Below, in pieces: positions 10,931 through 59,055 of a stretch of 64,000 bases of DNA. Made by a program: the position numbers and the translations under genes. The stretch is from Omphalotus guepiniiformis. Lineage: Eukaryota > Basidiomycota > Agaricomycetes > Agaricales > Omphalotaceae. Numbering within the stretch: the first letter of the stretch is position 1; every line of letters starts with the position of its first letter. Under the pieces are notes generated by a model, which saw only the letters and a list, made by a program, of their open reading frames with translations, ran no database searches and had not been told where the DNA came from. Location: NCBI GenBank assembly GCA_028554645.1, contig JAQOOI010000058.1, positions 62,001 through 126,000 on the forward strand, given 5' to 3'.

Positions 10931-12978
10931 TAGATACTTACGCTCACGATTCACAGTCAGCGATATAGTCTTTTAGCCTCGAACTCGTGGGCGTATCTCA
11001 AAGAATCGAAGAACACCTCAGCCTGAGAAATGTTCAGTGTGAGTACGTTTTATCGGAGTACGCCTGAGTACGCTCACTAGCAGCATGATGGAGGTCTGTA
11101 GACGTGCGATGTTTCGCCTCTGCGGAGTTGGAGGGTCGGAGTTGAGAGGTTGCAGCTTGAAGGAGCTCTAGCTAGCCCAGGGCTCAGGAACTGAATAGAG
11201 AGCCTGTCAGCTGTGAGTGCAAAATATTAGCTAGGGTCTAGCCTGGACCGCACTGGACCGCCACTACTGTATGTACTGACACTTTCAGTCTGAAAAACGA
11301 GAAGTTTGTCTGGGGTCCGACGCTTGAAGAGCGGCAAATGTCAGGCTTCAGCAGCCCAATGGAAATGTGGCAGTCGTTAAAGTGCAGATAAGTTCGAAGG
11401 ACTTCGAAACTCTGGCCCGCTATTTCGGAAGTAGGTATCAAGTGAAGTTCCTCTGGTTCCCTCATCATCATTAGTATTGAGGGATTGAGACTTTGCGGTC
11501 AAACCTGGCCAAACGCACTAAAAGCACGCTAACATATGTACGTGATAGAAATCATAGAATACATAGCCCTTACGAGAGCTATCTACCGCCGAACATTTAC
11601 AATGATTTGGTTCATCCTGTAAAGACAGATCTTTCAGTTGAAGAAGCCAGCGAAGACTCACACCATTGTAGAACTCGACTCCTCGAGCAAGCGTGGTCAG
11701 TAAGAGATGGTGGCCGCCCCGGAGCCATCCCGAAACTCTATAAGTCCGACTCCGCTGTATGGGCGACACGCTTCCGACCTTTTCGTGAGCGTACGGTCCT
11801 CCAAGACAACTGGAGTCCTGGCCCGGGCACTCTGTGATGCCCTAGCATCACTCGACTTGTGTGGTCTACGGGACCAAAGACCGGTCATGGTCCTAAACAT
11901 TATCAACAAGGCTAACACGTTTTGACTCCCCGGCAATGTCAAGGTTGCTCGAACAGCACCTTGACTCAGTCTTTCGCCGACGTTGGCAATGGAACTGGCG
12001 AACCAAAATAGATGAAGTTCCTTGGCAAGCAGAAAGAAGAAGTAAGGTACTTTACTTGGTTCAAATCCGATAAGCTAAAGCTCCGTTCAACGCTGCTTCT
12101 TGTACGAGAGCCATGGCTTCGATCTTCCATGTGTACGACACTCGTGGAATCGAGACGGGGGCTTTCAGTTACTTTCACAACTCGAAAGTACCGTTCTAGT
12201 TTGACGGAAGATTGGGAATGCCACATTGTGCCCAAACGTTCGGACCATGCAAAGGGACTTTTATGATGCCCCGGCAGACTGTCGGTTTTCCTGAAGTCGG
12301 GCCTGAAGTACTGACACTCGGCAGAGTAGCAAACCCAAGGGCCTGTTCGTCTGACCGATAGCGTGTCTGTTTATTTCATAGCACCCGAACTTTATGTGAC
12401 CTTGTCCTGGGGCAACCGTAGAGCGTGAGCAAGGCTTGCATTTGCAGTGAACCATTTGACAAACTCCACTGAGACGGCAGCTCTACTGAAGAACAGCTCC
12501 AAAAATCTGAGAATTGAATGACCGCAGCGCATGCGTGAATTACGCCGGCGGCACTGGGATGAAAGGCCCACAACACCCGCGCGACAGTCTCTCTTCAATG
12601 TACAGACTGAACACTCTGGTGTCAAAGCGCGATAACGCTGATCAGTTCCACATCTGGATTTACGAGACGACGTACGCGTACTTTTGAACGACCCTTGTAA
12701 TTATGGCGATAGCCGCGACTGAATCGAGCTGCTGATGGTAGCGAGAATATCTCGAGTTTAATCATTGGAGCCTTTATAATAGTAACAATGAATCTTGTTC
12801 ACTGGAATTGCCCCACAGTCATAAGTAAGAATGAGTTCTAGAGTGGGGAGAGAATTTGAAATTTAATAGCAAAGGAGGGAGTTTATTGCGGGCGTCTAAG
12901 TCACGAGATGTGACGCACATCTGGTGGTATCGGTTTTCTGTGGAGCAGTTTCGCTATGGTCGACGGTTCGACAGTGGC

Positions 12979-15900
12979 ATGCCCTCGTCTTCCGTTCTGT
13001 TGAACGCTTTGTCCCAAGCTTATCCTTCTCAATCTTCCTCTATTTCTTCAAATTCTGATGCTTTCCTCTCTTCGTCCTCTCCCTCAACCGTCTCCATGCC
13101 TCAGAAACGCATAAGAAAGTCTTCTAGGCCCGCAACAGCCCCAGCAAAGGAAGATATTGTTCTTTTACCTTCCCTCAATCCTTCTTCGAGGATGCAGTTG
13201 CTTTCTTCAGATTCAATGAGTAACATGCAGACCGTCAACGAGGATGAATGTTGCTCAGATCATTCCAGCTCCACGCCCGTCACACCCATGGAATCAGCCA
13301 CTACGGTACCTAATAACTCTCTTCATATACATACAGCTTCGTCGACTATGAATGGTGTTCCCGAATTCTCCTCTGTTTCTCCAGTATCTCGAGATCATAC
13401 TGTTGCGCTCGATGCCGCTCAGTCTCATCCTGTGACGTCTTACCGATCCAACTACACAAATTACACAGATTCCTATGACTGGGGCATGTTCATCTCAGCT
13501 TATGCTTCAGGACGATGGGATCCGCATAAGACTCCCAATCCACCTGTGAGTACGAGCGGGAACTCATCTCTAGGCTTAGGAATTCATGGGCTTGGCCATC
13601 ATCTACCTCCCGCCCTCGATACAAGCCTGTCCAAAGCAACCCATAATTCCAGTGGTACAGCTTTTCCGGAACACGAATCACCTGCAGACACATCAGAGGA
13701 GATCACTCCCATCGCTAACTCTCCGCCCATGTCTGTCTCAGAAAATCCGCCTTCAGTATCTAAAAGACCCTACCAGGAGGTCGCCCTTTCTACCAACAAT
13801 ATCCCACAATCTCACCCGCCATCGAGTCTTTATCCCAAATCTCTCTCAACTCATCGATTGCGGAACCCCTTTTCCTCTGCTGGAAAGGCGTTGCCTAGCC
13901 CCTCGAGTCCTTCCTTCAGGAAGGGAAAGCAAGCGCAGGTCCATTCAACCGTACCGCTCGGTTCCAGTTTGAGCGCAGGCGCGACTAGGAAAGACTCGAA
14001 CTACAAGGCCCAGAAAGCGAAAGCGGACTTGTTCCTTACTCTACCCCATCGTCTACCTTTCACCTCGTCTTCGGGGCTATCACCAGGTGTACAAGTGGAT
14101 CGTTTGCCTTCTACACCATTGCAATATGCCGCTGCCTTACAGAGCAATGCATTGTATACAAACACACATTATTCTCAATCAGACGAGAGTCCTGAACCTT
14201 CTCCAACGTGCGTCCCTTCGATAATATTCTAATAGAATCTTCTTACATGTATTTCAGTAAGCTTCCTTCTTCAAGTCCTTCACAGCCTATTCATTCCACG
14301 TCGGAACCTGTGCCGATATTGCATGAATATTTACCAAGTACATCGCCACCATCACTGACCAAACCCGGCTCTAACTCCTCAGCATCCTCCTCAACAATAT
14401 CCATCCCCACACCAACGTCGAGTACCTCCTCCCGCAATTTTTCTTACCAGTCGTCGCTTCCTAACACTGCTTCCACGCCCCATTTTCCGCCCTTTCATTC
14501 ACCTTCGCATCTTCATACACAACACCTCCCGCAGTTCGCTAATTACGTTTCGTCATCCCGTCACGATTATTCCAATGTCCCGACCCTCAATGCAGCGACT
14601 ATCCGTCTTGCTGGAACGAATGTTAATATTTCGCCTCTCGCTCTTCCAAGCCCTGAGTATGAACTTACGGATCCGATGAGAAATGTAGGACCTTTGGGTG
14701 GACCGGTATGCGTCACAGTTCCCGGGACTCTGCCCGATGACCAAGTCTCGGCCTCTGTTGATGACGAAACGCAAGACGGCACTTTATCGGATTATGGGGT
14801 TCTTTTCACGAATGGAGAAAACGGACATCCGAATGGTATGGGTGGTACGAGTGGCAAGGAGTTGTTCAAGGTGCATACGCGCAATACGAGTCTTGATTTG
14901 AAGAAACTCGGGGAGAGGCCGGACAGTCGGGAAGGGAAGGAAGGGGAGTTTGGTAGGGACAGGGATAGCGGGGAGTTTGGAAATAGTATCGTGACGACGC
15001 CTGGTGGAACAAGGCGGCGGATGCGGATATCGATGGAGCTGAAGAAATTCTGGGAGGGGACGATGGATGTTGATCAACCTGGGACTGGGGATGCGCATAG
15101 CCGGGGAAGTGCTGCAGAAGAAGGCTCTACTGTGCCAAAGGGGAAGAACAAAACGGTCAAAATTCGGACTCCGGAAGTTGACATGGATGGAGCGGAGGAT
15201 GATTACTTCTCGAGGGGAAAGGAATTTTCTGCATCGTCGCTGGTGGATGGTGTTGATCAGGTAGACGGTGGTGTGCCGCAGCTGATAGTGCCTACGTCTG
15301 AACTCATCATTCCATCTACTGATTCACACGAGCGTGCCGGCCAGAATACAGCACCGGATGCTGCTGCAGCTGTGGAGAAGGAAGACAGCACGCATACGCT
15401 TGCGGTGACGGACTCTGAGAGGTTGACAAGCTCACCTCAGCCCATATCAGGGACAATCTCCCCCTCCGGTTCAGAACTGCATAGTTTAGGTGCACCGAAG
15501 ACTGTGCCGACGTCCATATCTTTACCACCAGCGCCAATGTTGTCTTCGTATTCCTTTCCGTATCCCTATGATCATGCGCATGTGCACCTCCATCCTACAG
15601 GTGTCATGAGTGTCCCTGTACCACCTTCGACGAGCAATCCTGCACGCGACGGGATGGCTGGCATCACTGAGGAACTCCCTCACTCTTTGACGGTGGGACC
15701 CTTTAGTGGAGGCTACCACAGCGAGGGTAGTTCAAGCGGAGCGAGTGTGTCAAATACACCCCGCAGGGTGAATTTGACACGACAGACAAGTGCGCCTTTG
15801 CCGGTTGGTAGTGGGAGTAGCGCGACACTCAGCGGCGGCATGGGTATCGGGATTGGGATGCCACCACATGTACTTCCTTCGGTGAGCGAGCGGGAGAAAT

Positions 15901-18900
15901 CTGAAATGGTCGGGTTGGCTGGAACTATTGGAGGAGTGGGGAATGTAACTCCCCCGAATATGTTATCACTAGATGGATCCGGTGAGGTATCAAGCTCTGC
16001 TGTTATACATCCGACAAGAGGTTCGAGTTTGCCTCCGCCGAGTGGGTTGAGTGCAAGCACTTCAGCGAATCTGATGGGTCCACTGGGCAGTCAAAATCCT
16101 GGAGTGAGGGCAGCGAAAGAGGAGCAAATGTATTTAGAGTTGGGATATTTGGCTCCGCCGAACCCGCCGGATGAGCTGGAGAGACGTAGGGCATTGTACA
16201 AGTGCGTTCTGGGGTGTCTTAACTGTGTTTCGTTCCCTGACCACTCATCTACTTTCGTATAGGTTCAACATTTGGAACACGGGCTCCGATCTCAATTTCG
16301 ACCGTATCGCGCACCTGGCCAAACTGGTGTTCAATACAAAGGGGGTTTTCATCAGCTTGGTGGATGGAAATGAACAGTGGTTCAAGTCTGAATGTAAGTT
16401 TGAGCTGGGTGTAATGATTTGTGTCATTACATGCGTACTCTGTGGATGAGGTCATGGATTACTCACGGACTTGTATATTTGACCTTTTTCTCTGGGGATA
16501 TATTCCATTACTTGCAGGGGGCGTCAAACTCAACTCGTGTGCACGGACACAATCATTTTGTGCCCACACGATTCTGCAACGGTACGTGCGAGGTCGTTTT
16601 CTTCTTGAGATGCTTGTGCTGATTCTGAGAATAAGAGATGACGAACCAATGGTTATCCTAGATACACTGCAGGATTGGAGATTTGCAAGGAATGTGAGTA
16701 CTCATCGTCCTATCTGCCAAGGAGAGTTCTGCTTATAGCTTGTGCAGCCTCAGGTCGTGGGTCATCCCCACATTCGCTTCTACGCTGGTGCACCCTTACG
16801 AACGCAGGATGGCTACAATGTCGGAAGGTGGGGCAAATCGAGCCTAGTTTCCAGTTTTCGTGGGCCTGACCAGAGTTGTACCAGCCTCGCAGTTATTGAC
16901 GATTCTCCACGTGAGGAGTTCACACCTAGGCATCGACATACGCTCAAAGAATTCGCCGCGATTGCAATGCGAGAGATGGAATTGTGGAGGGACAAGGTGT
17001 GTGTGTGTTTGGTTGTGTACAAGGTTGAGCGCTCATGGCTGTCAATCTGTAGATACAGCTGAGGATTCGGGATAGGATCCAGAATTCTGTAAGGCTTTCA
17101 TCCTCGTGGAAACTTTTTGGTGGAGCTGACTACGGATGCCATGTAGATGGAGCAATTCAGTCGGGAGTGTCTAGAGATAGACATGGAAGAACAGAATCCT
17201 TCGGCGTCCTCGAGGCAAGAAAGTCCCGCCAATACTCCTAATCAATCGCCAAGTCTGTTGATGCCTTCCTCCATGGATCGAGTTTACGATCGTGCAGCCA
17301 AGCTTGTACAGCGCACCCTAGACGTTGAAGGTGTCATTGTAATGGACGTATCCCATATTGAAGTCCTTGAAAATATGTCAAGCGAGGGGAGTGTGAGCGT
17401 TGTGATGCATCATGGTGATCCTGACATCACGGAGACGACGGTCAAAAATTTGACTGCGGAAGAGTATTCGAAATTGAATGCATTCTTTGCGAAGTACCCT
17501 GATGGGAGGATCAGCGAGGGCATTGTACCGCCTAGTTTCAGGCTGTTCTTGCCGACCTCAAGGATACAGTACGCTCTCAGTCAGTGTGCTAGAGTTTTTC
17601 TTTTAGATGGCTATAGAGAACTTATCTTGTGCGGCATTCTTTTAGCTGTTCCAATATACAACATTGACAAGAGGCCCTTCGCGTTGCTGTGCGCGTATAA
17701 CGCATCCGACCATACCAAGCGCTTCGTGAGTCTTCTGCATGGTTTGAGGAAGAAGGTGTCCTGATTGGTTTATTGCGTAGCTGGAAGGCCACGAGCTTTC
17801 ATATCTGCGAGCAATAGGTAAGACGCGCGAAGGTATCAGATTAAAAGGACGCAATTGGACTGAATGTCGTAGGTGTCATCATACTTTCTGCGGTGCTTAA
17901 ACGGCGAATGATCCTTGCCGACAAAGCAAAAAGCTTGTTCATATCTAAGTTCGTTAATATGCCTTTGCTGTACATCTTGGGCGATTCACTTATCGTGCTT
18001 TATATCAGCATCTCGCATGAACTTCGAACACCGCTGCACGGAGTAAGTGCCTGGCTTGATCGATGCATTTATCGCAACTAACAGGCGTTCGGATCTCGTT
18101 GACCCTTAGATTTTGGCAGCTGCGGAGCTTCTCAGTGACACGGACCTCAATCACTCTCAAGCTTCGTTCCTGCAGACGGTTCAAGCGTGCGGCACTTCAC
18201 TTGTTGAAACTGTCAATCATGTTCTCGACTTCACCAAATTGAGCGGTAATTCCAAGGCTGGTGGAGTGGAGAATGTCATTGTCTCGAGCAAGTCAGTTTT
18301 TGTTTTTACTTTTGGGGAGCAGACAAACTGATATCCGGTGTCATAGGGTGGATTTGATGCAGCTTGTTGAAGAGGCTGTTGATGGTTGTTGGATTGGTCA
18401 TCGTGCCCGAACTGCAATAGTAGATGATTCTGGAATTGGTAGTGTCTATTCACCGCCGAAGGAAGATGATACATCTTCCAATAGGAAGCATGTTGAGACT
18501 GTCGTCGACATCAGCGACCGCAAAGAGGTTTGTGAAGCATTCATGCCTTCTTCCTGTTGGTCATTACTGATGACTTCCAGGGATGGCTTCTCAAATGTGA
18601 AAAGGGTGGTATCCGCAGGGTACTTATGAATGTGTTCGGGAACAGTCTCAAGTTCACTTCTGTGCGACGCCATTCTCTCGGTCTTTCCATCCTCACTAGC
18701 TAAAACACTTCTCTAGGATGGCTACGTGCATGTCATGCTGCGCACCGTTCCAGCGGGAGAAGACGACCCGCCAGACAAAGTCAAGATAGAATTGTCTGTA
18801 CAAGACACCGGCAAGGTAATCGTTCTCACTGCTTAAGTTTATCCGTCGCTGTACCTGACACTCCGCGCTTTCATAGGGTATCAGCCAGAATTTCCTCAAG

Positions 18901-30872: not shown

Positions 30873-35777
<4,905 letters not shown>

Positions 35778-41640: not shown

Positions 41641-43017
41641 TTATGTCGGAGACCTCTTCTTTAACAGCTCCTTTGCAATCTCATCTGCATCCGCTGTCGT
41701 GTCAGGTAGCCAGAAAGCCTGCGAAGAACAAAGATGAGGAATTTCGTTAATGCTGAAAGACAGTAAGCTCACCAACTCAGCCCCGGCCGTGCACATCATG
41801 GAAAAACGAGGATTGAATTTCACACATCTGGACGGTCCGGGATGACCATCCAGTACTGCCAAAGGCGACATCTTTGGTGGCACAGCCTTGTGATTTGGAG
41901 GTCCAGTCGGAACATGCAAATTTTGCACATCCCAAATGACAACTTGGCCGTTGAGACTCCCTCCGACGATATATTTGCTATCCGGAGTCCATGAGACCTC
42001 TTCTCCGCTACAACCCTTGTCCGGATGAATGTTTAAAGGAGCAGCTAGCGACCTCCGCTCCAGTCCAACATGACCCTCGAGCTTCGCTACTAGATGGCCT
42101 TCGTAGGCATCCAGAATGTAGTGGGCGTCACCTGAGCAGCCGACAAGAAGGAACTTCCCATTCGATGAGAATGCCAGAGAGGTTATGTATATCGGGCGCG
42201 GAGGATAGCTGATGAGGGAAAGTGTCGGGTCCTCCAGAGTTATGACGAGGAAAGGTGCTTTGTCGTAGTTCGCCTGGTCGTATAGAAGTATACGGGAGTA
42301 GTGGTTCACAGCGACGGCAAATACCAGTCCGGAAGTATCGTAGGCGATTATGGGTGGTGCAGGAAGAGTAAGCAGACCTCGACAGGTTGGAGTTCGAAGA
42401 TCCCAAAGCCGAACAGTTTTGTCCATTGAGCCCGACATAAAGCCATCATCTACAGGTGATACTTCCAAGGATATCACCCGCTCTTTGTGTCCTTTGAAAT
42501 ATGAAAGATATTTGTTGTCGTGCAGTGAATGATATCGAATGCCATCATCCTCCTTGGTGGAAGCATGGATAATGGCCGAACTTTTGTGTGTGAAACGAGG
42601 TAAATCTATTCCATATTTCTTTGATTGTAAAGTCTTCAAATGCCTGAAGAGTATGGAGTTCAGTGCGAGGTTATAGTGGTAAGATGAGACAACTCGCTTG
42701 CCAGATTTACAACTGTACAATCGAAACGTCTCGTCTTCTGCAGCGGTTATCAACTGGTCTCCTCGGTCGTCAAAGCAAATTCCTGTGATATGAAGAGGTC
42801 CAGAAGGTGTTCGCTGCCCAAATGCATTTGGTGTTGGGGGAGGTTCGACGGCGTTCTTGAATATCCTCGAGGGCTTCAATTTGATCTACATTACTCGTCC
42901 TTTCGAGTCAGACTTATTTCTCTCAGTCTTATAGTAATGCCCTTTCACCATTAAGCCATTTGTTAAGGTAAGTTGAGTCGGGGGAGGCGCATTGCTAGCA
43001 TTGGGCGGAGGCGCCAT
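41641..43017 (-). CDS. SWD2: WD40 protein Swd2/WDR82 (COMPASS and cleavage/polyadenylation factor subunit)
   Basis: WD40 beta-propeller that links Set1/COMPASS H3K4 methylation and 3'-end processing. Exon 1, from ATG 43017, reads MAPPPNASNAPPPTQ...TNGLM and splices across a ~64-nt intron to IKLKPSRIFKNA. Propeller blades follow: HITGICFDDRGDQLITAAED, the LNSILFRHLKTLQSKKYGIDLPRF segment and conserved IRYHSLHDNKYLSYFKGHKERV, GFMSGSMDKTVRLWDLR, VSWTPDSKYIVGGSLNGQVVIWD, and CVKFNPRFSMMCTAGAELAFWLP. TAA is at 41641-41643. A second intron (about 41715-41770) removes a short segment near the end. The order and wording of the blades are diagnostic for Swd2. It is head-to-head with Rpb5, with 61 bases between start codons. 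Confidence 0.93.
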
Positions 43018-48204: not shown

Positions 48205-51200
48205 TTACACGTACAACCATTTCCCGATATCACGAGCCCAGTCTGCAAGATCAGATACGGATTTCTGTTCAAAAGGTACCTTTAGTGATTCTTCCGAATC
48301 GAGCGGGTCATTTTGCGGAGTCGGGGTCTCGGGAGGTGTAACCTGACCCAAGGTAGGCGAAGGTCGAACACTTCGTGCATTCGGATTCCTGTGTTCCTTG
48401 AAGGGGGACAGTATACCCAAGCCACTGCCACCAACGGAAGTGATATATGGATCGAACTTGGCATCGGCGAGCTCAGCCAGCAAATCCGTCATAAGACTGT
48501 CGCTAAAATCTGGAGGCAAGTTGTGAGTGTGTCCGAGGCGTGACAGACTTGTAAATCTTACCGTCAGGAATCAGCGTGACGGCACAACCCCCACCGCCAG
48601 CTCCAGTAAGCTTAGTACTCAGGCTATACGGTGAGGCAGCTGTTTTCTCTCGAATGAGCTCGAGGGCAGGATGCGATACCCCAAGGGAAACCAAGTATCT
48701 ATGATTTTCGTTGATCATAGCCTGAAAGCCAGGTAGTAAAATCAGCATGGAAACGTGTTGAATGACAGACACAACGAACCGAAAGATCCCGTAGCAGGTT
48801 GTCTCGACCGAACTCGGAAGAGTCAGCGAGAGAGCGTTTTGCCTGGAAGCTGATATTTTCGATTGCGTCCAGAAGGTTTCCGACCACCTCAGGTTGCTGC
48901 ATACAAAGGCATTTCATTATAGACTCCGAGTGCAGTGAGCAACAAACTTACCTCAAGCTTCATCCGGCCGACGCCAGCAACAAGTTTCTTAGTATCCCGA
49001 GGAATCTTGGAATTGGTCAAAAGGAACCGCAGAGATCCGAATCTATTCAAACGTTAGCACGAACCCTCTTACTGCAAGTCCAAGGTGTAACTAATCCTTG
49101 AATAGATTCCATTCCACTAGGCTTACCGAAGCCCGGTCTGTTGTATGAAAGGGCACCGCCAAAGACGGATACACTATTATCAACACCGCTAGGGTTCCCG
49201 TGAAGTATTTTCTCGGCAACAAATGCCCATCGGTTCACTTCTTCAGCTGTGTGGCGTTCGATAGCATGTCTACCGTGGTGAGTGAGATGAGGGTGATCTG
49301 AGATAGGTGTAGGTAACGGCGGTATAGATACTCTCTGGTTGAGCAGAAGGAGCGCTGTAGCCGCACAAGTGGAAAATGATGCTGAAGATCCGAGACCAGC
49401 ACCAACGGGTAGAGTCGAGCGAGCTGCGAAATGTATAGAAGGTCTGAAAAGGGTAAAAGGTGAAGTTCAGAAGGGGTAGCTTTCATAAAACAACAACATG
49501 CCTGTGACCATGAGCCAACTTGATGTACATATACAGAAACGCAAGTGCGGCAGCCCGAGCTTGATGTTGTTCCTCGCCCAGATTCTTAAGAGGTCCATCT
49601 TGAATCGCATCTATTAGTTTCTGATCAAGGTCTTCAGGATGTTTTTCATTGAATGCCAAAGCGGTAACGTCGGACCACGGTAGGCTCTCAATATCCCATT
49701 CATGATAGAAATTTCCGATATCATTGAAGTGTACCGACACTGTGTTGTCGTTCTTAGGTGTGGCCAGGCCATAGCACCGAAGATCCACTGATGCTGCAAT
49801 AGCGGTCTATAGTGAGGAATGAATTTGACATGCCAACAAAGAAGAACACCATCTACTCACTACACCATGCACTACGGCATGTTCACCAAAAAGAATAACC
49901 TTCCCAGGTGCACTTACGAGCCATTCTTGGTCCAGATGTTTACTGCCTCCTATAGCCAGTTGTTCCACAGCTTTATTCAAGGCGGCTTCGTCTGGCTGTA
50001 CCCGGACAAATTTGTTTAGCTGAGCGCTATACGTGATAGCACCTGCATCTACAAGCGCGTGCTCCAAGTCATCCAGAAGGTCGCCAGAATCCTCGATGCC
50101 GACGCAAAGGCGGATCAGGTTTTCAGGCAGCCCACGAGCAGCACGAATCGCAGGGTCAATCGAGGCATGCCTAGATGAAACGCGTCAGAAGAGGAGCCTC
50201 AGCAAACGTGGCATATAACGTACGACATGACACAGGGCATACTTATCAAGCTATTCACGCATCCAAAGCTTACACTGATTCCCCAGAGTCTAGTCCCTCC
50301 GACAATTTTCTCACTCAGCTCTTTGTTGCCTGTTTCGAAGCTAAGAACTGCGCCATTGCCGTCAGCAATACGGCTATGTATGTCACGACCAGGGTGATCG
50401 GGTAGACCGGGGTAGTTCACTTTGAATCCCAAGGAGTGAAGATAGGTGGCCACAAGCGAGGCGGTGGTTTGTTGGCGGTCCATGCGTAAAGCCAATGTTT
50501 TAACTCCTCGGAGGAGAAGAAAACAGTCGATTGGAGTAAGAGCATTTCCTACAGAGTTGATGACGAAAGCCATTTGCTGCACGGAGTAAGGAAATGCACC
50601 GATCTAAATAGTTTAAAGACGAACCTTTGCAATCTCATCCCTGTTGCATGTAATCATTCCAGCCATTAGGTCGTGGTGACCACTGAGATACTTTGTAGCA
50701 CTGTCGTAAACGATATCGGCACCATGCTCCAAAGGCCGTTGGAGATACGGGCTCATCATAGTATTGTCTACTACTACAATCGCATTCGGAGCGCGCTCCT
50801 TGATTTCCTTGCTGATGAGAGCCAAGTCGGCGATCTTGAGAAGAGGGTTGGTTGGAGATTCCAGCAGAACCATCGCAGTCTTTGTGGGGTGAATAAACGG
50901 AAGAATTGTGTTAGGATCGGTAGTGTCGACGTGGTGGACCGTAACCCCTCCGTGAGTCTTTATATAGGTGAGCAATCGGTTTGTACCGCCGTACAGGTCA
51001 TCTCCAGCAATAACCTCATCGCCTGGCTTGAGAAGTCGCAAAATGACATCTAAGGCGGCCATTCCTGAAGAAACTGCAAATGCATGGGTGGCCGATGAGA
51101 TCTTAGCGATATGATGTTCTACAGGGCAATTTCAACAATCAGCTCCTTCGTTTTGAGATGTTGAGGAACAAGTCCTTACCCAAATGGCTACGTGTTGGAT

Positions 51201-51417
51201 TTCCACTGCGAGAATAATCATATTCACCAGCTACACCTTTGAACGTGGCTGTTTGATAGATTGGCACAGAGCTGCTGCCATACTGATCCTTCTGGAACGG
51301 ATTCTCGACTGTAGCACACAATGTAGAAAACCTGTAAGGTTTACGAGGCCGCAAAGGTGATTCTGAATCCGGGGTAGGAAGGTCATGTAGGACCTTGGTG
51401 TCGACCGCTGGGCCCAT
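48205..51417 (-). CDS. In-frame fusion: cystathionine beta-lyase (Str3/MetC) + mevalonate kinase (Erg12)
   Basis: Ten exons (51417-51180, 51118-50625, 50576-50224, 50170-49861, 49806-49502, 49443-49096, 49042-48952, 48896-48780, 48721-48562, 48509-48205) join in consistent phase to 906 codons plus stop. Residues ~1-443 are a PLP enzyme converting cystathionine to homocysteine: SSVPIYQTATF, YDYSRSGNPTR, PLP-lysine motif YDSATKYLSGHHDLMAGM, LWGISVSFG, LIRLCVGIED. Residues ~446-906 are a GHMP kinase phosphorylating mevalonate: LVSAPGKVILFGEHAVVHG, STLPVGAGLGSSASFS, HGNPSGVDN, TKLTGAGGGGCAVTL. Exon 4 (49861-50170) carries both the lyase end and the kinase start without stop or ATG between. Oddities: a GC-AG intron (49444-49501), and an intron (49043-49095) whose donor reads AT where GT is expected. 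Rival: a separate kinase start is possible via a hidden 47-nt intron. Confidence 0.85.
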
Positions 51418-56394: not shown

Positions 56395-56878
56395 GATAAG
56401 TGTGTTAAACGAATGTAGCTTAGAAGTGAGCGAGCTTCGCTGATAGTAGAGCGTGCTGAGAAAGTAGAGATGATGTGCGAGAAAGAGAGGGAATGAAGAA
56501 TATGAGCGGAGGGACCCTCCTTATATATGTTTTCGAGGCCCCTTCATTGCCCCTTCTTGCAGCGCGGGTCAAATGCGGTCAATCTCGGCGCTAATGACGA
56601 CAAAAGAGCGCGATGACGTTTTTCGAGAGCTTACATAAGGGTCGCTACAGTCGCAATGGCAATTCTGATTTCCATTCAATCAGTACGAAGCTGTTGAAAA
56701 TGAACCTTGCTGATTCTTCAATGATGATAGGTATTGTTTGTAGAGTGCCCACAATGTTAGATACAGACATCTCAGCAACAACGAGCGGTAATTTACAATT
56801 AACGATACAGACACGAACTGGAAACGGTTAATATTTAATTCCTGTTTTGACATTCGCAGTCCCACAAGTGCTGCTCAT
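56395..56878. promoter_or_regulatory. Promoter of the secreted repeat protein with TATA box
   Basis: On the minus strand TATATAA lies at 56521-56527, about 127 bases upstream of ATG 56394. The intervening leader is purine/pyrimidine-biased (GAGAAAG-rich on the plus strand). The rest up to 56878 holds the 3' region of the siderophore synthetase gene. Confidence 0.45.
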
Positions 56879-59055
56879 TCATTCGGTGGGGTCTACACCT
56901 CGGTACTGAATGAGATTTGGGAAAGGCGAATACACCATCTGAACCACAAATAAGTAACATCTCAAAACATTGAACCAACGGTATACTCACATCCCGATAG
57001 TAGTCTTGAAGCCGCATTCTCATCAAACATTTTCCAGACACAAATGTGGCATCAGGACTTAACCATGCTTTGAATAACCCATGGTCAGACGGAATGATAC
57101 CCGTCAAATGTCGCCTCAACATCTCCCAACCTATACCATTATAATGGAATCCCAGGAGACGGATCAGGCGTTGCAGGTGGTTATGAATCAGAGTGTGATA
57201 AAACTTGGGATAAGCTTCTTCAGCTGTCTTCGTCACGACACAGTGCCCATCCAAAAATTCAAAATCTATGCCGGTAGATTTTTCCAAGCTTGGCGGATGA
57301 ATACGAAGTCCACCCAGGTCTCGAACAACAAAACCCAGCAATTGCCCCTTTGCGATGTCAAATCGCGCAAGAACATTCTGTGCGTGTGCTTCAAATGCGA
57401 CACCATTATGCAGCAAGGGAGGTACAAAGGCCTCAACCGCCAGCTGAATATAGCTGTAATCGCACGCGAGTCAGCAGCTTACAGGCAGACTACGACCAAG
57501 GCTCACCGGTCCAGGAATGCGACCTTTTTTTCCGTAGTATCCAATCGAAAAACATGCTCGACAACAGACAATCCAGTAGGAATGCCATCATGCCCAGACT
57601 CAAGCAACGCCGCGCAAACTATAACATTCTCTCCGCATTTAGGTTTGTAGCACTCTCTGAGAATCGCCGTGAAGTGCTTCGCAAGATCAGGGTCCTTTTC
57701 ATGAGACACCGCACTGGCAGGTTCTCGTTCGACTGTTAAGATTTCTGGGTTGATCGATAGTTTGGGAACGACGATTCTAGAAAATCGCGGTCCAAAATTA
57801 GCTGTGTAGTGGGAGATTGTCCTTAACGAGGAAGATATCTTGACTCCGACCGCAAGCTTCAGCGCCATCCCGGGTAACGTGGGTACCACAACAGTCCTGC
57901 AGCTCGCTTTAGAACTATCTTCATTCGCTTGAATGGTAGATGATCACCTAACACTAGACTGAGCAGCAGCCTTGAAACTGATTTTCGGATGCAGAGCCTC
58001 TACATAGGGAAATTTCGCGAGAATTACATCAAGTTGGAGCTCGTGTACCGGCATGATGACGGAGGAATCATTTAATGGCAAAGACTGCCCGGCAGAATGA
58101 GCGATTGAGTAAGCTAGCTCTCCCATAACGACGTCAAACGCCCCGAGCAGATCCAGATTGATTCGTGGCACGCGGACGAAACGTATCGTAGGTTCGTACC
58201 AGTTGTAAGAGGGGATATCAGAGGGCGACGCCCGCGCACGATGCATCTTAAGGTGTGTTAGTATTTTCATTGATCAACATGGAAATGTTTCTAACTGGGT
58301 GAGTCGGATGTCCCTCCACGAGACTTTGCTCCCACTTGATGGATGGATATGATAACAAAGGACATGCCGGAGGATTCTCATAAGCAACCTCTATATGATT
58401 GCAATCGTGAGCACACTTGGGAGCAAGTAGAACAGATTCTCTTACTCTGCCAGTGAACGGAACTTGAGAGCTCGTTTTCGATGGAAACGGAGATTTGATC
58501 TTGAATGACTAGCTCCTTCACGAATTTCCTCCAAATTTGAATGGGAGAGTCAACGCTCTTGAGTTTTAAGTCTTGACCCAGTGTCCACGGAGGAAGCTTT
58601 AGTGTAGAAATGACGATACTTTCAAAGCCATCAAGTTCGGCCTAAGAACGCTTGAATATATATAAATGTGGAACGTGCTCGCAGTTACGCACAGGTTCAG
58701 AAGTATCTGCAACATTCCTGAGGACTTCGTATACTTGAGGAAGCATATCGAGAGGGTCGACAAGGGTCACATAAGATCCATGCTTAATGTGCTGTGCTTG
58801 AAGGATCGGCGGGTGATGAAGAGGTACGATCGCTAGTATATCGTCAGCCTGAAGGGCTCGAGTGATGTCCGGATGCTCCGAGATGAGACATCTCGAAAGT
58901 ATAATTAAAAGCCCTGCAGCAGGACTTGATTGACCAATTGGGAGGTAGAGGGCCCGAAGAAGAGATTCAGTTACAAGGCAGGAAAGAAGACGAGAAGAGA
59001 CGGCAAATTCGGCGCGTTCAGCAGGCTGAAGGAGGTTGAAATTTGTAGAGGGCAT
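56879..59055 (-). CDS. NRPS-independent siderophore synthetase (IucA/IucC family)
   Basis: ATP-dependent ligase that joins carboxylates (usually citrate-like) to amines or alcohols to build siderophores. Seven exons from ATG 59055 give 617 residues plus stop in my model (58693-59055, 58446-58641, 58296-58390, 57960-58246, 57507-57896, 56991-57453, 56879-56938). Diagnostic motifs: EGHPTHPMHRAR (the GHPxHP adenylation motif, about 58240-58316), AVGVKISSSLRTIS, AFEAHAQNVLARFD, and GFVVRDLGGLRIHP. The FhuF-like C-terminal part has LGFHYNGIGWEM, FVSGKCLMRMRLQDYYRD and the PFPNLI ending. Length and motif order match the family. The intron between exons 4 and 5 (57897-57959) is the least certain. 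No siderophore transporter or N-hydroxylase gene is adjacent. The upstream region has an iron-type GATA site. Confidence 0.9.

Follow-up and report, generated by a model that had tools for sequence, protein, structure and literature searches.

The gene on the minus strand between positions 48205 and 51417 is most probably (about 0.88 by our own estimate) the basidiomycete metC-MVK (STR3-ERG12) fusion, encoding one bifunctional protein that we estimate from its 906 residues at ~99 kDa. All positions refer to the window, the whole 64,000-nt stretch of DNA that was analysed (Omphalotus guepiniiformis, GCA_028554645.1, contig JAQOOI010000058.1, positions 62,001-126,000 of the forward strand). The evidence is direct observation of an open frame, of domain identity, of catalytic motifs, of conservation and of a single clear kinase locus. 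The spliced gene model, starting at 51417 and ending at 48205 on the minus strand, has ten exons of 2721 nt in all, or 906 codons plus a stop, and encodes a eukaryotic-type cystathionine beta-lyase followed by a mevalonate kinase, with 0 stops and 0 in-frame Met residues between them. The features of the fusion, namely both domains, the lyase-then-kinase order and one open frame, are all present. The parts of the gene are as follows.

48205-51417, minus strand: whole fusion gene with its start and stop codons, 906 codons in ten exons (gene model, homologs, profiles)
51180-51417, minus strand: exon 1, lyase (gene model)
50625-51118, minus strand: exon 2, lyase, with the PLP-site lysine, residue 222 (gene model, structure alignment)
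50224-50576, minus strand: exon 3, lyase (gene model)
49861-50170, minus strand: exon 4, a single open frame joining the end of the lyase, the linker and the beginning of the kinase, no Met (gene model)
49996-50042, minus strand: possible 47-nt GT-AG intron behind the out-of-frame ATG at 50048 (arithmetic; not conserved)
49921-50040, minus strand: linker, residues 406-445, no Met and no stop (gene model, alignment)
49502-49806, minus strand: exon 5, kinase, followed by the GC-AG intron 49501-49444 (gene model)
49096-49443, minus strand: exon 6, kinase, with PVGAGLGSSA and HGNPSGVDN (gene model, relatives)
49043-49095, minus strand: intron 6, AT-AG ends, ATTAGT...GCTAACGTTTGAATAG, non-canonical first base (donor enumeration)
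48952-49042, minus strand: exon 7, kinase (gene model)
48780-48896, minus strand: exon 8, kinase (gene model)
48562-48721, minus strand: exon 9, kinase, KLTGAGGGGCAVTL (gene model)
48205-48509, minus strand: exon 10, end of the kinase and a tail of low conservation (gene model, alignment)

The two enzymes meet in exon 4, whose uninterrupted frame takes in LIRLCVGIED at the end of the lyase, the linker and then LVSAPGKVILFGEHAVVHG, without any in-frame Met. The preliminary description had placed the join of lyase to kinase in a single frame of this exon, with no in-frame ATG ahead of the kinase part, and both statements were borne out. Its total of ten exons in phase and 906 codons was also reproduced, but that total depends on an AT-AG intron 6 which went unmentioned, and the GC-AG ends of intron 5 (49501-49444) were likewise absent from it. 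Introns 1-4 and 7-9 have GT-AG ends, and the introns of the gene sum to 492 nt. Exon models using donor 50274 for intron 3, GT 49497 for intron 5 or GT 49126 for intron 6 were ruled out by stops.

The earlier naming of the two halves as cystathionine beta-lyase and mevalonate kinase proved right, both halves exceeding the cut-offs of their equivalog profiles. The lyase half scored 533.2 bits over residues 34-405 against the eukaryotic cystathionine beta-lyase equivalog TIGR01329 (cut-off 487.5), and its best solved match was the cystathionine beta-lyase 1ibj, which we take to be the Arabidopsis enzyme; K222 aligns with K278 of that chain, presumably the PLP-binding lysine. The kinase half alone scored 207.4 bits against TIGR00549 (cut-off 163.05) and aligned over nearly its full length with the mevalonate kinases 2r3v and 1kvk, presumably the human and rat enzymes respectively. 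Residues K452, E644 and D655 fall opposite K13, E193 and D204 of 1kvk, which we take to be catalytic, and the GHMP ATP motif GLGSSA is retained.

Relatives spanning both domains, for which a protein search had been proposed at the outset, were abundant. At a threshold of E <= 1e-3 the 906-residue query found 1035 homologs. Of the best 120 listed, 119 carried both domain types (lyase and GHMP kinase, by precomputed annotation) at 67-83% identity; the lone exception among those listed, P0104 (904 aa), aligned over the whole query. Because so many homologs were found and nearly all of those listed have both domain types, a chance origin of the observation can, on sequence grounds, be regarded as excluded. 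The Collybiopsis luxurians protein GYMLUDRAFT_41956 (P0001) is 83% identical over its full length, both domains included, and its sources name only its lyase half or call it a hypothetical protein, while P0127, P0141 and P0287 already bear the JGI name "cystathionine beta-lyase/mevalonate kinase". In Lentinula, the database model P0140 is a kinase with only the lyase end, and P0130, P0131 and P0126 have only the lyase domain precomputed, yet 94% of the kinase query aligns with them; all four appear to be the fusion under variant annotation.

Searching with a Malassezia fusion gave 589 homologs, and the 120 listed brought in smuts and their relatives (Sporisorium, Ustilago, Tilletia, Exobasidium), red yeasts and theirs (Rhodotorula, Sporobolomyces, Microbotryum, Mixia), and also Calocera and Bartheletia. 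Among the matches listed, the fusion occurs in mushrooms, smuts, Malassezia and red yeasts, which we take to represent all three basidiomycete subphyla; in the 120 matches listed per search, none from Tremellomycetes, Wallemia or rusts was noticed. The linker plus kinase as query gave 7567 homologs, and the 120 listed included kinase-only proteins of Aspergillus, Penicillium, Candida, Lipomyces, Morchella, Basidiobolus and Hesseltinella, the kinases of Ascomycota and early-diverging fungi being separate among these matches. Compared with five near relatives, mean identity was 91% for the lyase, 74% for the kinase and 63% for the linker; compared with nine fusions from smuts, Malassezia and red yeasts, it was 69%, 44% and 13%, respectively. 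The fusion seems to have been retained since early in the Basidiomycota.

The observation is real, and a fusion of this kind is already known, having been in print since 2012, when two papers described it independently (PMC3342255, PMC3468542). The accessible text of PMC3342255 names it metC-MVK, reports it from 12 basidiomycetes including Ganoderma lucidum, infers its origin in the basidiomycete ancestor, and gives it as the sole K00869 homolog in the basidiomycetes analysed, with no other mevalonate kinase; it also treats Laccaria bicolor as exceptional and describes some of the kinases as carrying a 16-residue insertion. The metC-then-MVK order there is the same as ours, and at an average of ~886 aa those proteins show, within that text, no substantive difference from the one described here. 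As far as its accessible portion extends, PMC3468542 came upon the same fusion from STR3, as ~450 extra C-terminal mevalonate kinase-like residues in all Basidiomycota examined except Postia placenta, with no stand-alone kinase found in the Basidiomycota examined and no difference from our gene that we know of. That portion also reports that the STR3 and kinase genes of ascomycetes are apparently unclustered; the same two enzymes, Str3 and Erg12, are separate proteins in ascomycetes, as the kinases among our listed matches also are, and the deletion described there was made only of the STR3 of an ascomycete, M. oryzae. Later reports, in the parts accessible, include a fused unigene from Pleurocybella porrigens mycelium (PMC3720577, 2013) and GME67_g of Lignosus rhinocerotis (918 aa; PMC4129116, 2014), the only mevalonate kinase match in that genome and the same fusion, differing only in species. 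In the accessible text of the openly licensed literature we found neither a functional test of the fusion nor a test of why the two enzymes are joined, or of the tie between sulfur and isoprenoid metabolism that the preliminary description conjectured.

Copy number in this genome agrees with a single clear source of the kinase. A search of the 42.5-Mb assembly with the kinase sequence gave six matches, all of them exons of the fusion gene, and the TIGR00549 profile gave four, two of them in the fusion gene and the other two, on C22 and C73, low-scoring (28.4 and 23.3 bits), so that neither search of the assembly yielded a clear stand-alone mevalonate kinase. With no second clear kinase locus, the fusion should supply the mevalonate kinase step. 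The lyase profile, exon by exon, also ranked the fusion gene best (largest piece 381.7 bits), ahead of a locus on C13 whose best piece scored 197.6 bits; in these genome searches with the lyase and TIGR00549 profiles no single piece reached the curated cut-off, because a genome search takes the exons apart.

Elsewhere in the 64-kb window, Rfam and tRNA scans gave no match. A FhuF domain (56838-57470, minus strand) adjoins an IucA/IucC match (57602-58075, minus strand; G000:C61:119602-120075) with one TGA inside, and 56838-58075 looks, from its sequence, like an intron-containing NRPS-independent siderophore synthetase; a second IucA/IucC locus of the genome lies on C60. An open frame of 414 residues with WD40 repeats occupies 41644-42885 (minus strand), and stop-to-stop frames of 465, 688 and 770 residues at 12835-16259 and 33465-35774 (plus strand) had no Pfam match at E <= 0.001.

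The 906-codon total requires intron 6 to run from 49095 to 49043 (ATTAGT...GAATAG, minus strand). When GT, GC and AT donors over 49200-48961 were enumerated and each was paired with AG, every in-frame, stop-free GT-AG pair cut away residues of exon 6 or 7 that are conserved. The GC-AG pair 49122-49043 is in frame and keeps exon 7 but loses PSGMESIQG, which near relatives mostly retain, and the remaining AT-AG pairs in the interval also lose residues. The sole junction tried that matched the residues of relatives was 49095-49043; they read GKPSGM-SIQGFGSLRF in P0001 and P0004 and, with one further difference (SIHG), in P0010. Three accounts are possible and all fit: the intron may be of the rare AT-AG type, position +1 may carry a G-to-A variant, or the base there may be a sequencing error. 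On AT-AG introns in fungi the literature search brought up one review, of the minor spliceosome. With AT-AG ends the sequenced allele might fail to yield a complete kinase on splicing, and we regard it as a toss-up whether the G at +1 of intron 6 has been lost here, through a splice mutation or a base error; kinase from the sequenced allele would then be truncated and another allele, or the true sequence, normal. Such a lesion is compatible with the fusion reading. The remainder of the fusion gene is intact, mevalonate kinase is expected to be essential and true AT-AG splicing is itself possible, all of which count against a lesion, but past its first base the donor ATTAGT resembles a normal GTTAGT, a CTAAC branch-like site and an AG end are present, and no GT-AG alternative keeps the conserved reading. 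An assembly search found no second copy of 48900-49443, and with this stretch in single copy a second allele could be hidden. That the locus is a regulated one, in which poor splicing of intron 6 yields both the bifunctional protein and a lyase with a truncated, inactive kinase, their ratio setting isoprenoid flux against methionine synthesis, strikes us as very improbable.

Free mevalonate kinase, made from a kinase-only transcript or an internal start besides the fusion or the lyase, is also unlikely. The preliminary description had offered a kinase-only start followed by a 47-nt intron, and its arithmetic works, for with the ATG at 50048 and the GT-AG intron 50042-49996 removed an in-frame reading beginning MQPDEAAL... 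results, but the codons it requires are not conserved. For the out-of-frame ATG to arise, the codon ahead of Ala must end in AT, as that of Asp does here; in the 232 fusions among 325 fetched proteins in which both linker borders were recognised (the 93 dropped include some fusions too), the site held Asp-Ala in 73, His-Ala or Asn-Ala in 7 and the incompatible Glu-Ala in 88. A Met lies beyond the first 20 linker residues in 85 of the same 232, and within the last 20 residues before the kinase motif in 35, which would allow an internal start, whereas 147 lack a Met beyond the first 20. Some listed proteins do comprise the kinase part only, yet 12 of the 14 whose starts were inspected look, from their sequences, like pieces of fusions: P0134 and P0140 still carry the lyase end, P0137 and P0138 start, with no Met, in the linker or at the end of the lyase, and eight (P0135, P0144, P0146, P0150, P0158, P0164, P0166, P0180) lack the kinase start motif. 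The other two are P0192, which resembles a yeast-type stand-alone kinase, and P0160 (471 aa, no starting Met), which has the kinase start motif and no recognisable lyase end in the part inspected. We also considered 16 fusion ORFs on contigs, chosen by eye, some of them partial and their contig origin not stated. In 11 the spare contig sequence (75-433 nt) is shorter than the 492 nt of introns here, which suggests spliced cDNA, although the argument is weak for P0157, P0275 and P0301 (at least three of the 16), which resemble sequences of smuts or red yeasts, groups in which introns may be few; the other five have 572-4347 nt to spare. The linker is kept in 15 of these 16 short-contig ORFs, the pattern not being found in P0141, and this too speaks against a free kinase. 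Wrongly merged fungal gene models exist, and intron 6 is odd, but that gene prediction or assembly merged two neighbour genes here is scarcely credible. Both domains lie within one open exon, the identical join recurs in many independent genomes, and the accessible text of a transcriptome study reports the fusion (PMC3720577).

On the preferred reading of a bifunctional fusion, one spliced mRNA would give a single ~99 kDa protein, the first ~405 residues of which would form a PLP-dependent cystathionine beta-lyase converting cystathionine to homocysteine, separated by a variable linker of ~40 residues from a remainder that would act as a GHMP-family mevalonate kinase converting mevalonate to 5-phosphomevalonate. 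The two active sites are most likely independent, their substrates being unrelated, and an ancient gene fusion would have joined both enzymes and equalised their levels. Poor conservation of the linker beyond near relatives makes post-translational cleavage possible, and this 13% identity to the distant fusions, together with P0160, would weigh against our explanation to the extent that sequence comparison can. We nevertheless infer one polypeptide with both activities, without proteolytic separation and without a regulatory link.

Since the same fusion is present in many basidiomycetes and has been published, the Omphalotus guepiniiformis copy is an ordinary one, and what it contributes is a clearly defined model of the gene, together with an intron possibly of the AT-AG kind. 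The result matters for annotation: many of the listed proteins are named for the lyase half only, so that the kinase can appear to be missing.
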